Source of the DNA: Aquamicrobium sp. | Lineage (GTDB): Bacteria > Pseudomonadota > Alphaproteobacteria > Rhizobiales > Rhizobiaceae | Length of the DNA stretch: 64,000 nt | NCBI GenBank assembly: GCA_019739225.1 | Contig: JAHHDT010000002.1 | Span: forward strand, 1-64,000 | Direction of reading: 5' to 3' | Part shown: piece after piece, positions 47,508 through 63,331 of the stretch | Position numbering within the stretch: the first letter of the stretch is position 1 | Layout of the letters: each line of letters opens with the position of its first letter | The notes under the pieces: model-generated | Seen by the model: only the letters and a program-made list of their open reading frames with translations | The model's database searches: none | Told to the model about the DNA's origin: nothing | Made by a program: the position numbers and the translations under genes

Positions 47508-49403
47508 TCAACCGACCGGAGCGTCGTCGTCGCGCTTGATCGCGATGATCGAGGAGCGCGGCAGTTTGCCCTCGCCGTCCGGGAAGGGTGCGGCCGGATG
47601 CTGGATGCCGACGAACATCGTGCGCCTGTCCGCCGACCAGCAAAGGCCGGTCACTTCCGACCCGTTCGGGCCGGTCAGGAAGCGCTCGATACGCCCGGTG
47701 ACCGGGTCGCCGGCCAGCATCTGGTTGTTGCCCTGTCCCGCGAAGTCGCCTTCGTTGGAATCGTCGCCATCGGTCTGGATCCAGATCAGACCGGTGGAAT
47801 CGATCGCCATGCCGTCGGGCGAGTTGAAGAGGTTGCCTTCGTTGACGTTCTCGGAGCCCGCATAAGGCCCTTCGTGAACGGTCGGGTTGCCGGCCATGAC
47901 GTAGAGGTCCCATTGGAACGTGTCCGACGCATGGTCGTCATCGACGGGGCGCCAGCGCACGATCTGGCCGTATTCGTTGGCCTCGCGCGGGTTCGGCCCG
48001 CCGACTGGCGTCCAGTCACCGCCCGCATTGGCCCTGACGCCGCGGCGGCTGTTGTTGGTCAGCGCGCAATAGGCTTCGCAGGCGAGCGGGTTCACAGCGA
48101 CCCATTCCGGCCGATCCATCGTCGTCGCGTTGACCCGCGAGCCGGCCGTGCGGGTGAAGATGGCGATTTCGGCCGCCGACATGCCGGTTGCTTCTGGCGT
48201 CAGGGCAATCCATTTGCCGGTCATGTCATCGTCGAAGCGGGCAACGTAAAGCTGGCCTTCGTCCAGCAGCGTCGAGGTGTCGCCACCGGGCACATAGATG
48301 TCGCGCGAGACGAACTTGTAGATGAACTCGCCGCGCTCGTCGTCGCCCATATAGACGACCACACGACCGTCGGGCGCGAGCGTCGCTGCCGCGTTCTCGT
48401 GCTTGATGCGGCCGAGCGCGGTGCGTTTAACCGGTGTGCTTGCCGCATCGGTGGGATCGATCTCGACGATCCAGCCGGCGCGGTGCGGTTCGTGGGGGTT
48501 CTTCGACGTGTCGAAGCGGGAGTCCCATTTGTGATAGTCGTAGCCCCAGCCTTCCGCGGCAATGCCGTAGCGCTCGTAGCCTTCGGCGGTCAGCCCTTCG
48601 AGCTGCGTCTCCCCCGTGGCGCCGAAATAGCCGTTGAAGTTTTCCTCGCAGGTCAGATAGGTGCCCCAGGGTGTCCTGCCGGAACCGCAATTGTTGAAGG
48701 TGCCAAGGCTTTCCGTGCCGGTCGGATCGGCCTCGGTCTTCATCAGGTTGTGGCCGGCGGCCGGCCCCGCGATGCGCATCGGCGTGTTGTGCGTGATGCG
48801 ACGGTTGAACGGGCTGTCCTTGACTACGGACCAGTTGCCGTCGGTTTCGCTGATCTCGAAGACGGCAACCCCTTGCAGATTCTGCAGCTTCAACACGTCC
48901 TGCGCGTCGCGCGGTACGCCGTCTGTGGCCTCGGGCAGGTTGATGTCGTTATTGGTGTATTCGTGGTTGACCGCGATGACCTGCTTGCCGCCGATGATAA
49001 ACAGCTCCATGCCGTCCGTGTTCTCGCCGAAGATCTTTTCCGCGTCCGCTGTCGAACCGCCGGTTGCGTGATCGAGCTCGGCCACGCCGGAAAACAGCGG
49101 GTCACCCCAGCTTACCAGGCGCTGCCAGCGATAGCCCTCCGGCACGTGCACGGTGTTGTCGGTGGAAATCGGGATCGGCTTGAAGGCAAAGCGCGAATCC
49201 TGCGCCGCGCGGGCGGGAAGGGAATTGAGAATGCCGGCGCCCATGACGGCCGCGCCCGATCCGAAGGCGAGCACGCCGCCCAGAAAACCGCGCCGCGAGA
49301 TTGCCCGTTCCACGACGCGGTCGAACTCGTTTTCCTCGGGACGCGGGAAATTGATCTCGTCCCACTCGTCGAATGTCGGTCTTTCCTGTCTTGTATCGTT
49401 CAT
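47508..49403 (-). CDS. phoX: PhoX family alkaline phosphatase (Tat-exported)
   Basis: The 631-residue enzyme is a calcium/iron-dependent phosphatase of the PhoX/DUF839 family that frees phosphate from organic esters in the periplasm. A twin-arginine signal SRRGFLGG (about 36-43) precedes a hydrophobic core, preceded by a long hydrophilic n-region as in PhoX. Family blocks include VNHEYTNND, GTYLTCEENFNGYF, IKHENAAATLAPDG and GRVVVYMGDDERGEFIYKF. AGAAGGGAGC precedes the ATG at 49403. An 18-bp Pho-box-like site lies 84 bp upstream, so PhoB control is likely. Confidence 0.92.
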   Translation of the reverse strand: MNDTRQERPTFDEWDEINFPRPEENEFDRVVERAISRRGFLGGVLAFGSGAAVMGAGILNSLPARAAQDSRFAFKPIPISTDNTVHVPEGYRWQRLVSWGDPLFSGVAELDHATGGSTADAEKIFGENTDGMELFIIGGKQVIAVNHEYTNNDINLPEATDGVPRDAQDVLKLQNLQGVAVFEISETDGNWSVVKDSPFNRRITHNTPMRIAGPAAGHNLMKTEADPTGTESLGTFNNCGSGRTPWGTYLTCEENFNGYFGATGETQLEGLTAEGYERYGIAAEGWGYDYHKWDSRFDTSKNPHEPHRAGWIVEIDPTDAASTPVKRTALGRIKHENAAATLAPDGRVVVYMGDDERGEFIYKFVSRDIYVPGGDTSTLLDEGQLYVARFDDDMTGKWIALTPEATGMSAAEIAIFTRTAGSRVNATTMDRPEWVAVNPLACEAYCALTNNSRRGVRANAGGDWTPVGGPNPREANEYGQIVRWRPVDDDHASDTFQWDLYVMAGNPTVHEGPYAGSENVNEGNLFNSPDGMAIDSTGLIWIQTDGDDSNEGDFAGQGNNQMLAGDPVTGRIERFLTGPNGSEVTGLCWSADRRTMFVGIQHPAAPFPDGEGKLPRSSIIAIKRDDDAPVG

Positions 49404-57549: not shown

Positions 57550-58102
57550 GGTCGTGTCCGTAGTGCGGATCGCCGGGAAGGCGTCCAAACTTGTCGGCTT
57601 CGCCATGATGATGGTGGTCGTGTCCGTGCGAATGGCCGGAATAGGCGCCGCGCACGGGGTTGAAGGGCGCAACGATGTCCTTGACCGTCGCGCCGAGCCC
57701 TTCCAGCATCGCCTTGATGACATGGTCGCGCAGGATCAGGATGCGCCCGGTCTCGATCTGCGCGGCGAGATGGCGATTGCCGATGTGCCAGCACAATTCG
57801 GCAAGGTGCAGCCTGTCGCGTGGTACGATCTCGTAGACCTCCTCCTCCGCCGCGACGATCAGCGCCGTGCGGCCATCGTCGAGCACCAACAGGTCGCCGT
57901 CTTCCAGCGCCGTGGGCTCCGGCAGGTCGACCAGCACCTTGTCGCCGCCGGCAAGCTCGACCACCCGCCGGCGCAGATGGCGCTCGTCATGAACAAGCAC
58001 AACGCTGTCGAACGGCGCCGTGCCGGTTGCCGCCTCGGCCGCGCGGACAATCGCGCCTGCGCGCGGCAGCTTGGTGAAATCCTGGTTGATCTGCAGCTTC
58101 AC
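57542..58102 (-). CDS. ureE: Urease nickel chaperone UreE
   Basis: The 186-residue protein delivers nickel. It has the two UreE domains (N-terminal peptide-binding, C-terminal metal-binding with [13 protein letters not shown]) and a His-rich tail ([15 protein letters not shown] and HYGHDHA) for nickel storage. The start is GTG, preceded by GAGGAGG. The GTGA overlap with the GST gene upstream shows coupling. Confidence 0.94.
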
Positions 58103-58698
58103 GCGGCCTCCTCGCGGGCTTTCGCACGCGCCAGTGCGGGACGGGCAAGCACCCTGTCGAAATAGGCGTTGACCCGTTCCGAGGCAACGTCGAAGCGGGC
58201 GCTGCGCGCCCATTGCCCGCAATGGCCGAGAATCACATCCGCAGCAGTGAAACGGTCACCCATTGCATATTCGTGCTCGCCCAGCCGCATTTCCAGCGCG
58301 CGGATCTCGCGGGTAAATTCCGCCGTCGTCCAGGGCCCGACATCGACCCGCTCCTCCTCGGCCAGCAGCATGCGGTGCTTGAGCTTGTTCCACAGCGGCG
58401 CCTCGAGTTCCGACTGGGCGAAGAAAAGCCAGGCGTTGAGGTGGGCGCGCTCGGCCGGCGTCTGCGGCGCCATGCCTTTCTCGGGATGCTTTTCGGCGAG
58501 ATAGGCGCAGATCGCCGCGGAATCCGTGACCACCACGTCGCCATCGATCAGCGCGGGCGCCTTGCCCGAGGGATTGTAGCGGCGCATCTCGTCGGTGTGC
58601 TGCTTGACCTTGAGAATGCTGTAGGGCTGGCCGAGCTCCTCCAGCATCCAGGTGACCCGGATGAGGCGGGAACCCGGCGATCCGACGGCCTGATACAT
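58099..58698 (-). CDS. Glutathione S-transferase family protein within the urease operon
   Basis: The 199-residue protein has the N-terminal thioredoxin fold (about 1-75, with [18 protein letters not shown] and the cis-Pro region GKAPAL) and the helical C-terminal domain with the N-capping block [22 protein letters not shown]. The catalytic residue of the beta class is Cys, not seen here; a Ser near residue 7-10 is a candidate. It overlaps ureE (GTGA), so it is coupled to the urease genes. The substrate is unknown. Confidence 0.85.
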
Positions 58699-58727: not shown

Positions 58728-59024
58728 TCAGAACTGCTCGATTCGCTCGGGATGCACAATCTCGATCCGGCGTTCGACGAGGTGCGGCGCGCTGGCATCG
58801 CGCCAGGCGAGGAGATGCGGCTGCTTCGAATGGGCTGTCAGATCCTCGCGCGTCTCCCACTGCTCGATGAAGACGAGCTTCTGAGGATCGTCGAGGCTGG
58901 CGAAAAGTTCGTAGGAAATGCAGCCCTTCTCCTTGCGGGTCTCTGCCATGCAGGCTGCTGCGGGTTCGCGCAGAGCCTCCAGCGAACCGGGCTTGATGGT
59001 GAGCGTGGCGACGACGTAGATCAT
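58728..59024 (-). CDS. Antibiotic biosynthesis monooxygenase (ABM/YgiN-like) family protein
   Basis: The 98-residue ferredoxin-like protein has the ABM pattern: a first strand VVATLTIKPG, the block AAACMAETRKEKGCISYELF, and QWETREDLTAHSKQPHL. Relatives are cofactor-free quinol monooxygenases or haem-related enzymes. It lies between ureC (35 bp) and the GST gene (29 bp), all on the same strand. A role in urease function is not known. Confidence 0.86.
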   Translation of the reverse strand: MIYVVATLTIKPGSLEALREPAAACMAETRKEKGCISYELFASLDDPQKLVFIEQWETREDLTAHSKQPHLLAWRDASAPHLVERRIEIVHPERIEQF

Positions 59025-59059: not shown

Positions 59060-60772
<1,713 letters not shown>

Positions 60773-60988
60773 GGGCTGTTCCCCCTCGGATCAGTGTGCT
60801 GTCGGCGCTGCCGCAGCGGGCCTTGGATGCGGCTGCCGGGCGGCTTGCACATTGCCGCCACCAAATGACCCCGAAATGGTCGCCGCGTTCATGAAACCGG
60901 ACCCGCTCCCATGCATTTCCTGGATGGCCGCCTCGACGTGGCCACTCCGAAAGAAGGGACAAACCCGAACGGAATGAAAGGTACGATC
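60773..60988. promoter_or_regulatory. Divergent promoter region between ureC and the exported-protein gene
   Basis: This 216-bp gap separates two divergent genes and must hold the promoter for ureC and the genes behind it, if ureB-ureC transcription is broken by the inserted pair. I could not see a distinct operator by eye. Confidence 0.5.
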
Positions 60989-61444
60989 ATGAAACGCATT
61001 CTTGGCCTCACCACCGCCGCCCTCATGGGTGCTTCGGTCATCGCTGCTCCGGCCTTTGCGGAAAGCAAGATGGACCTCTCCGGCGAAGCGGGCGCGACCA
61101 CGACGATGCCGGATGTCGATGCCGGCACCACGGCCGCGATCGGTGGCGATTTCGAGTCCGCGCTGACGGCGGTCGGCGCCGGCTCGTCCAACGCGCAGGC
61201 GATCGGTACGCTGAGCGAGGTCGACAACGTCAAGGTTGTCAGCGTCAGTGATCTGGAAGGTCATGACCAGGCCGCGCTCGATCAGGCGCTGACCCAGAAC
61301 AGCGACGGCGTCGATGAATTGCGCACGTCGATCAGCGCCAATGCTGCGCTGAGCGAGGAACTTCGCACGCAGGGCGTAGACACGTCCGCGATCGTCGCGG
61401 CACAGGTTGAAGCGGATGGGCAGGTCACCGTTTACGTGATGTAA
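60989..61444 (+). CDS. Small exported protein of unknown function (paralogue A), inside the urease locus
   Basis: The 151-residue protein has a clear signal peptide (KRILGLTTAALMGASVIAAP, cleavage near AFAES at about 24) and a mature acidic region with no domain I know. An AAAGG site precedes the ATG at 60989. Its mature region aligns by eye with the next + strand gene over about 90 residues with one gap, including SSNAQ.., VDNVKVV, the VDELRTSI block and the ends VTVYV/VTIFV. It is encoded opposite to, and between, ureB and ureC. Function is unknown. Confidence 0.8.
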   Translation: MKRILGLTTAALMGASVIAAPAFAESKMDLSGEAGATTTMPDVDAGTTAAIGGDFESALTAVGAGSSNAQAIGTLSEVDNVKVVSVSDLEGHDQAALDQALTQNSDGVDELRTSISANAALSEELRTQGVDTSAIVAAQVEADGQVTVYVM

Positions 61445-61624
61445 CGTCCGCAGCGAGTGACGGGCCGGCGCGAATCCCGTTTCGCGCCGGCCTGTTCTGT
61501 CAGGGCGTGGTCGTGGTTCCATTGCCCCGAGGGCTTGTGTAGGTTGCGGCCGATGAACCGAATATGCCGCTCGCGCGTTTAACCGCGTCGCGGCCGTCCG
61601 GCCTGATGAAAGGGAGTTTGACTT

Positions 61625-62107
61625 TTGCCACTCACGATTGCCCGGGAAAAACCCATCTGGCTGCACGCCATTTTCGCGGCCGCCTTCCTCTTGGCATCCA
61701 TACCCAATGTCGCGCTTCTCGCGCAGGGGCTGGATGCGGAGGGGGCGATCGACACGATCGTCGGGTCCGATGTCACCACTGAGAAGGCCGAAACGGCCGC
61801 CGACGAGGAGCGTATCGTTGCGGCTATAGAAAAGTCGTCTGACAACGCCTCCGATGTGCGCAAGCGATTCTCGATCGACAATGTGGACATCGTCTTCCTC
61901 CCGGATTTCGGTGAGGCGGAAACGGCGGTCGAAGCAAAGCTCGAAGAGTTGAAGGGCAGCGTCGTCGAGTTGCGCGAAGCTATCCAGGGAAGCGCGATCT
62001 TCTACCATGCCATCGATTCGCGCTCGATCCTGCTGACGGATGTCGTCGCGCTTGAGTTCGATGACGAAAATGGCGTCACGATCTTTGTCGCGGGCGACGA
62101 ACCCTGA
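61625..62107 (+). CDS. Small membrane-anchored or exported protein of unknown function (paralogue B), inside the urease locus
   Basis: The 160-residue protein begins with a hydrophobic segment (HAIFAAAFLLASIPNVALLA, about 14-33) that could be a signal anchor or uncleaved signal, followed by an acidic domain. TTG start at 61625 with GGGAG eight bases before it; no ATG occurs in suitable place. SIDNVDIVFLPDF and VVELREAI match the corresponding part of the upstream protein, so the two look like diverged tandem duplicates. It converges with ureB 32 bp away. Confidence 0.72.
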   Translation: MPLTIAREKPIWLHAIFAAAFLLASIPNVALLAQGLDAEGAIDTIVGSDVTTEKAETAADEERIVAAIEKSSDNASDVRKRFSIDNVDIVFLPDFGEAETAVEAKLEELKGSVVELREAIQGSAIFYHAIDSRSILLTDVVALEFDDENGVTIFVAGDEP

Positions 62108-62139: not shown

Positions 62140-62445
62140 TCATAGCGGCCCCATAACCTTTTGCCTGAAGCCATAGACGCGGCGACGGCCACCGAGCGGA
62201 ACGAGCTGAATGTCCCGCTCCTGGCCGGGCTCGAACCGCACGGCGGTGCCGGACGGGATGTCGAGGCGCATGCCCCGCGCCTCCTCCCTGTCGAAGCGCA
62301 GCCCCGCATTTGTCTCGAAGAAGTGGTAATGGCTGCCGACCTGGATCGGCCGGTCGCCCGTATTGGCGACCCTGATCGTCAGTGTGGGCTGGCCGGCGTT
62401 GAGTTCGATGTCGCCGTCCGCGGTGATGATTTCGCCTGGAATCAT
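62140..62445 (-). CDS. ureB: Urease beta subunit
   Basis: The 101-residue subunit forms the trimeric core with UreA and UreC. It has the blocks [27 protein letters not shown] and [10 protein letters not shown]. Start at 62445 is 9 bp from the ureJ stop. Unlike usual operons, ureC does not follow directly. Confidence 0.95.
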
Positions 62446-63076: not shown

Positions 63077-63331
63077 TCATGCCGCCTTGTCGCGCGCACA
63101 GCCCTGCGCCTTGAGCACCCGCGTCGTCGAAGCCGGGAAACGCGCAAGCTTGTCTGCGGGCCGGATCGGACGGCGCACGAGTTCGCCGCCGCAGTTCGGG
63201 CAGGCGCCGCCTAGCACGTCGGACGCACAGGGCGCGCAAAAGGTGCATTCGAAGGTGCAGATCATCGCGTCCGGCGCTTCTGGCGGCAGGTCACGGTCGC
63301 AGCATTCGCAATTGGGTCGCAGTTCGAGCAT
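63077..63331 (-). CDS. DUF1272 Cys-rich protein
   Basis: The 84-residue protein has the DUF1272 pattern LELRPNCECCDRDLPP followed by CTFECTFCAPCA and CPNCGGEL, four to five Cys pairs that suggest a small zinc ribbon. Function is unknown; it may bind zinc or nickel. It lies 9 bp after ureA and 37 bp before ureJ, clearly in the operon. Confidence 0.86.
   Translation of the reverse strand: MLELRPNCECCDRDLPPEAPDAMICTFECTFCAPCASDVLGGACPNCGGELVRRPIRPADKLARFPASTTRVLKAQGCARDKAA

Follow-up and report, generated by a model that had tools for sequence, protein, structure and literature searches.

Two paralogous exported proteins nested antisense in the urease cluster of Aquamicrobium sp. are probable envelope proteins of the EcfG general stress response

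The gap between the urease genes ureB and ureC of Aquamicrobium sp. harbors two small genes in antisense orientation, here named P1 and P2, whose products, as far as comparison of sequences can tell, form an undescribed, lineage-restricted paralogous family of small exported proteins. We think it likely that both are envelope proteins of the general stress response (PhyR-NepR-EcfG) that reside in the urease cluster and are independent of urease. The stretch of DNA analyzed, called the window below, comprises 64,000 nucleotides.

The preliminary description of the window reported a plus-strand gene pair inside a minus-strand urease cluster, and both open reading frames are indeed located between ureC and ureB (Table 1). 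P1 and ureC are divergent and 216 bp apart, P2 and ureB lie tail-to-tail at a distance of 32 bp, and it follows from this geometry that ureC would have its own putative promoter. P1 is composed of a signal peptide, a short variable linker and an alpha/beta domain of about 95 residues, and its N-terminus, MKRILGLTTAALMGASVIAAPAFA, was judged by eye to be a Sec signal peptide of the typical kind. P2 has a hydrophobic export segment at the N-terminus, followed by a domain similar to that of P1, which contains the motif GSAxFYHAIDSRS. The TTG start of P2 is preceded by AAAGGGAG and is conserved in 6/6 aligned rows. Sense-strand genes within the urease cluster of the window code for a glutathione-S-transferase (GST; 58099-58680), an ABM monooxygenase (58728-59024) and a DUF1272 protein (63077-63331); in loci without urease, DUF1272 (L159) and GST (L156) sometimes persist.

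Table 1. Features of the ureC-ureB region, in window coordinates
Feature	Position	Strand	Description	Basis
ureC (urease alpha)	59060..60772	-		TIGR01792, 1000 bits
Conserved block upstream of P1	60847..60897	+	51 bp, GCACATTGCCGCCACCAAATGACCCCGAAATGG...ATGAAAC	Alignment
Degenerate EcfG-like promoter of P1 (putative, weak)	60893..60917	+	GAAAC-N16-CATT, two mismatches	
P1	60989..61444	+	151 aa exported protein	ORF and sequence
Strong stem-loop, no T run	61459..61496	+	Between P1 and P2, just 3' of P1	
EcfG-like promoter of P2 (putative)	61554..61579	+	TGAAC-N17-CGTT, one mismatch	
P2	61625..62107	+	160 aa, TTG start, exported or N-terminally anchored P1 paralogue	ORF, model
ureB (urease beta)	62140..62445	-		PF00699, PRK13203

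The paralogy of the mature regions, proposed earlier from an alignment by eye, is confirmed by searches and by profiles. P1 and P2 match each other reciprocally in their own genome (E about 2e-5, 27% identity over about 130 residues), and the profile-profile comparison of 31 P2 with 27 P1-type sequences aligned 146 columns with a probability of 99.2% and an E value of 8e-20, over a span that includes the signal peptide and has a single one-residue gap in its final ~90 residues. The comparison of predicted mature domains, which had been suggested as a check, found the same order of core elements in both AlphaFold2 models, H-H-E-H-H-H-E-E, the models being compared by element order; the P2 model has one extra strand ahead of the shared core. 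The mean pLDDT values of the two models were 81 and 73 with high confidence in the domain, and residues 61-151 of P1 reached 86-93 per block. The invariant residues of P2 are Q34, I45, R79, I89, A124, H128, A129, and S132, i.e., one histidine and no cysteine, and no metal-type residue set (His, Cys, or other) is conserved in both proteins, the one conserved histidine being confined to P2. Since P1 lacks the HAIDSR motif of P2, there is no catalytic site common to the two.

The preliminary description recognized no domain in either protein, in agreement with Pfam, NCBIfam, and PHROGs, which gave no match above the cut-off or no credible relative, and with the PDB, which contained no credible sequence relative and no Foldseek match at E<=1e-3. 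The search for phage proteins with P2 gave no match, and among the relatives no Pfam family matches more than 4/27 P1-type or more than 3/31 P2 sequences at E<=0.1. The C-terminal domain of DUF421/YetF (PF04239), which is the cytosolic domain of a membrane protein, was considered for P1 and rejected: its weak likeness to residues 120-149 is not significant (Pfam E 0.037; 13.9 bits vs a cut-off of 23.6), and 2/27 P1-type members match it at E<=0.1 (best 0.011). PDB entry 3c6f, which we take to be YetF, was third in the Foldseek listing for P1 at a non-significant E of 2.7. LprI (PF07007) was also rejected as the identity of P1 and P2, with no Pfam match in the pair and none among the families listed for their relatives. 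Plasmid matches to P1 were two hypothetical proteins of Rhizobium and Sinorhizobium with 29-32% identity. We found no description of the antisense nesting of P1 and P2 in urease clusters in the literature; 'orf135' of R. leguminosarum presumably occupies the same ureB-ureC gap.

The distribution of the family was surveyed in 297 genomes of the family of the window, taken as GTDB Rhizobiaceae. At least 92 of them have a match to P1 and at least 93 to P2, 75 of the latter with E<1e-20 (hand count); these are lower bounds, as scoring was limited to the best initial candidates. Across the class, the P1 profile matched 8/385 genomes including its own: one clear match (G657, E 2.7e-15) belongs to the same order as the window, five of the six remaining genomes match profile positions 1-76 only, i.e., the signal peptide and linker, and one is doubtful (G348, positions 70-127, E 5.1e-5). 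With one clear and one doubtful case beyond its own genome, the family appears to be lineage-restricted. The 80 named P2 loci, gathered with the pattern [SN]A[MIL][FL][YF]HA[IV][DN]S and not free of near-duplicates and of loci on short contigs, such as L148, L161, L172, and L187, come from genera that include Mesorhizobium, Aquamicrobium, Aminobacter, Pseudaminobacter, Nitratireductor, Chelativorans, Aliihoeflea, Aquibium, and Hoeflea. Of the two genes, P1 is the one more often missing: upstream of P2, a P1-type gene could be detected in 27/80 loci. P1-type genes are also found antisense elsewhere in urease clusters, namely in the DUF1272-ureA gap (L210:7868-8395), in the ureB-hupE gap (L167:9059-9595), and between P2 and ureB, where the gene is a second copy (L114:8805-9221). 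By eye, 14 loci of the family away from urease have no common neighbors.

Of the 80 loci, 37 show the layout of the window, with P2 placed antisense in the ureC-ureB interval; the antisense arrangement thus recurs in the urease loci of related genomes, as the preliminary description had left to be checked, and is not an accident peculiar to one genome. Another 40 loci have no ureC, ureB, ureA, ureD, or ureG in the stretch examined, some of them retaining ureE, GST, or aldolase, and three have partial urease, L164 solely through a contig end. On the P2 tree, which is a gene tree with L164 scored as nested, there are 16 changes between the nested and the urease-less state, at least nine on well-supported branches, and some of them could be gains. 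Relics indicate that the direction is loss of urease: in Mesorhizobium soli NHI-8 (L159), 24 C-terminal ureC codons, by eye also first codons, and DUF1272 remain, and P2 is intact with a perfect GGAAC-N17-CGTT site despite the loss, the operon being present in its sister JCM 19897 (L138). The flanking genes are widely shared. An acyl carrier protein gene (ACP) is found in 46/80 loci (26 urease-less, 19 nested, and 1 partial), a beta-ketoacyl synthase gene (KAS) in 45/80, lyxose isomerase in 19 (17 urease-less and 2 nested), and a kinase in 26, in 15 of these on the window's side of P2. To judge from these shared flanks, many loci without urease appear to be the same site in the chromosome after the urease genes on both sides of P2 were lost. 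An ACP and KAS pair was observed just beyond ureD at L006:10678-12217 and likewise in L193; we take the ACP beyond ureD to be NodF-like. In two genomes that have P2 without nested urease (G035, G090), a compact urease operon with a ureB-ureC gap of 3 bp is located elsewhere.

The content of the gap was also compared among one urease locus per genus, 40 being chosen from the listed top ureC matches, one of them without ureB (L223). The two genes are 0.4-2.0 kb apart in 34 of the 39 readable loci, so a split between ureB and ureC is ordinary in this bacterial family. They are adjacent in five loci, enclose P1/P2-type genes in eight, and something else in 26, in 21 of which (L213-L252) there is a sense-strand LprI-like exported protein; the Pfam assignment was made on one of these proteins. 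LprI (PF07007) of these other family members resembles P1 and P2 in being a small exported protein in the same gap, but it is unrelated in sequence, contains cysteine, and is oriented in sense with urease. Two unrelated exported families, the LprI-like one and P1/P2, hence occupy the same place.

Promoters provide the clue to function. The EcfG1 promoter consensus of Rhizobium etli is GGAAC-N16-CGTT (PMC3892343), and that of EcfG of Sphingomonas melonis is GGAAC-N17-20-GTT (PMC6599016), with hypothetical and 'small secreted' proteins listed in the Sphingomonas target table. Inspection by eye of the upstream regions of P1-type genes located away from urease first revealed the motif, which was then tested on P2. 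A perfect GGAAC-N16/17-[CG]GTT site within 150 bp upstream of P2 was found in 48/82 regions compared to 45/8000 random 150-mers drawn from the same loci, and a site with at most one mismatch in 67/82 compared to 357/8000. Seven control gene clusters, taken at longest-ORF starts, lacked perfect sites, the share within one mismatch being 0-16%, while the reverse strand at P2 yielded one region and shuffles 0.14 on average. When spacers of 8-27 were allowed, 16 (19 regions) and 17 (29 regions) were prominent and the others reached at most 6. The perfect sites lie 57-92 bp upstream of the P2 start in 42/48 cases and occur in 36/65 dereplicated regions, in 19/39 nested and in 27/40 urease-less loci. 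Among 250-bp P2 regions, two earlier patterns matched 21/80 and 49/80, against an expectation of 0.008 and 0.0125 per region. In a deduplicated set of 14 P1 genes, which excludes L042 for its mis-set start, each of the 11 genes located away from urease has a site with at most one mismatch, which is perfect in seven, a count that includes the genes where the motif was first seen; the three nested ones (L019, L021, L028) have no good site. The 15 P1 genes adjoining P2 had no perfect site and two within one mismatch, and the same numbers were obtained for 15 short P1-like genes of Mesorhizobium and Hoeflea. Most P2 relatives thus have a GGAAC-N16/17-CGTT promoter, like the EcfG (ECF15) regulon of Alphaproteobacteria, and EcfG control of P2 across the family is well supported by this enrichment.

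For Aquamicrobium sp. itself, EcfG control of P2 is plausible. In contrast to the known regulon, the putative sites in the window have one (P2) and two (P1) mismatches; that of P1 is no better than chance, with about 40% of random 150-mers equaling or beating its score. The clade of the window is degenerate in this respect, as P2 of the second copy in the assembly (contig C5) and of Mesorhizobium sediminum have two mismatches each. The genome encodes NepR (PF18557, 58.6 bits, over the cut-off), and the genes on either side code for an EcfG-type sigma factor and for PhyR, both named by eye; two perfect EcfG sites lie, by offset estimate, in the nepR-phyR gap. Genome-wide, the motif count is barely above that of the reversed control (93 vs 80). 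A sigma-70 promoter scan found none, with 0.3 expected. On the minus strand at 49311, the window contains a perfect GGAAC-N17-GGTT, its only match of that pattern.

Other conserved elements accompany P1. Diverged copies of the upstream block lie 135 bp before P1 in the urease-less locus L118 and 148 bp before the P1 gene located between ureB and hupE in L167, with 11 and 10 substitutions, respectively, in 42 fixed positions; the block search has no computed chance level, and the hits checked all precede P1-type genes. Because these copies are found ahead of P1 even where urease is absent or the gap is a different one, the block probably belongs to P1 and not to ureC. ChvI was considered as its owner because of TCACA and rejected, no support being found in the available part of PMC8343143. 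The 81-nt stretch with the stem-loop between P1 and P2 folds at -44.8 kcal/mol (z -4.2), and a stem with changed sequence follows P1 in 6/6 aligned rows (by eye). It was not called a terminator in the terminator scan; its strength suggests separate transcription of P1 and P2.

The window from 38792 to 64000 and on to C2:80000 has a second copy at C5:40000-84065, where 40000 and 80000 are limits of the region compared or fetched and not biological ends. The C2 and C5 copies share 97.0% identity across 6.4 kb and 92.6% across 34.8 kb. The C5 copy has its own urease operon, the second in the assembly, which includes P1 and P2, and it is close to M. sediminum (ACP 99%, KAS 100%). Contig C2 has only 166.6 kb and the contamination of the assembly is 4.66%; the doubling reflects either a mixed assembly or the duplication of a large region. 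When the window is compared with the C5 copy, dN/dS is 0.14 for P1 and 0.15 for P2. P2 of L159 and of its nested sister strain gave 0.26, which is only moderate constraint, and another lost/nested pair gave 0.11.

The preliminary description had offered two readings of the pair, a tie to nitrogen or nickel handling and a hitch-hiking insertion, and neither agrees well with these data. If P1 and P2 were urease accessory proteins for periplasmic nickel, urea, or ammonium handling, kept in the operon for the sake of urease, their repeated nesting across many genera (37/80 loci) and the presence of P1-type genes in other gaps of the cluster (ureB-hupE in L167, DUF1272-ureA in L210) would be explained. 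We consider this unlikely, as P2 is not kept only with urease: it occurs in 40/80 loci without core urease genes and in 11/75 strong-P2 genomes without ureC at E<=1e-50 (41/297 overall; hand count). The frequency of ureC is alike in strong-P2 and in all genomes (64/75 vs 256/297), which means that there is no genome-wide association between P2 and urease, and no P2 match was found in 176/256 ureC-bearing genomes (hand count, the P2 search being a lower bound). The conserved upstream block, moreover, seems to go with P1 and not with ureC, and the invariant residues of P2 comprise one histidine and no cysteine. The position of P2 therefore says nothing about a function in urease. A neutral insertion without function would fit the lack of a known domain and the faster evolution of P2 compared to ureC (78% vs 98% amino acid identity between the two copies in the assembly), but it is highly improbable given the dN/dS of 0.11-0.26 in six P1/P2 comparisons, which indicates purifying selection. 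The TTG start, the upstream block, and the stem-loop are conserved, the EcfG-type promoter is enriched and present in most relatives, and P2 is widespread and retained where urease is gone.

Two further explanations start from the arrangement of the genes. The antisense position itself could be the function, with stress-driven transcription of P2 lowering the expression of ureAB or uncoupling it from ureC, in the manner of the excludons that, with noncontiguous operons, are the subject of PMC7154746. The stress response would then drive P2 antisense into ureB, so that an envelope protein is made and the urease structural genes are turned off, and a stress-operated excludon in a metabolic operon would persist, after the loss of urease, simply as a protective gene. 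The ends of P2 and ureB only 32 bp apart, the own stress-type promoter at P2 in most relatives, and the sole terminator-like site of the scan, which is located within P2 (62062-62078) and does not exceed chance, are in its favor, as is the antisense orientation in 37/37 nested loci, a class so defined, with which three partial loci agree. We nevertheless regard it as improbable: the distance between P2 and ureB is 1.5-2.3 kb in five Hoeflea loci, a single orientation is expected from common descent, and, since P2 is conserved at the protein level and survives the loss of urease, it cannot exist mainly to regulate urease. Transcription of P2 into the tight tail-to-tail ureB may possibly regulate ureB, but it cannot explain the retention of P2. 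Somewhat less probable still is a membrane component of ACP-KAS fatty-acid synthesis, according to which urease interrupts an ancestral P2-ACP-KAS unit. ACP follows P2 on the same strand at 3-420 bp in 26/40 urease-less loci, with KAS in 25, and the pair lies beyond ureD in 19/37 nested loci, 2.2-2.9 kb downstream in 16. However, ACP and KAS are found in only 46 and 45 of the 80 loci, P2 persists without the pair (e.g., in Hoeflea and Aliihoeflea loci and L116-L118) and has its own putative promoter, and the adjacency of P2 and ACP is the expected leftover of a ureB-ureD deletion.

The reading that we favor is that P1 and P2 are envelope proteins of the general stress response. Under stress, PhyR would release EcfG from NepR, and EcfG would transcribe P2, and probably also P1, from their own promoters in the ureB-ureC gap. 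The products would be exported by the Sec pathway to the periplasm or inner membrane, where they may act as small non-enzymatic binding or stabilizing domains; we infer this role from their export, their size, the absence of a catalytic site common to both, and the type of promoter. P2 probably serves to protect the cell envelope under stress and not to use urea or nickel. P2 would have entered the ureB-ureC gap in antisense orientation early in the group and stays when urease is deleted.

A hypothetical pair that would otherwise be filed under urease thus becomes a testable stress-response family, in which the function of P2 is predicted by its promoter and not by its neighborhood. Guilt by association fails clearly here, as a nested antisense gene outlives its host operon. 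Many targets of the alphaproteobacterial general stress response are uncharacterized, and P1 and P2, if confirmed, would add an envelope effector family to it.
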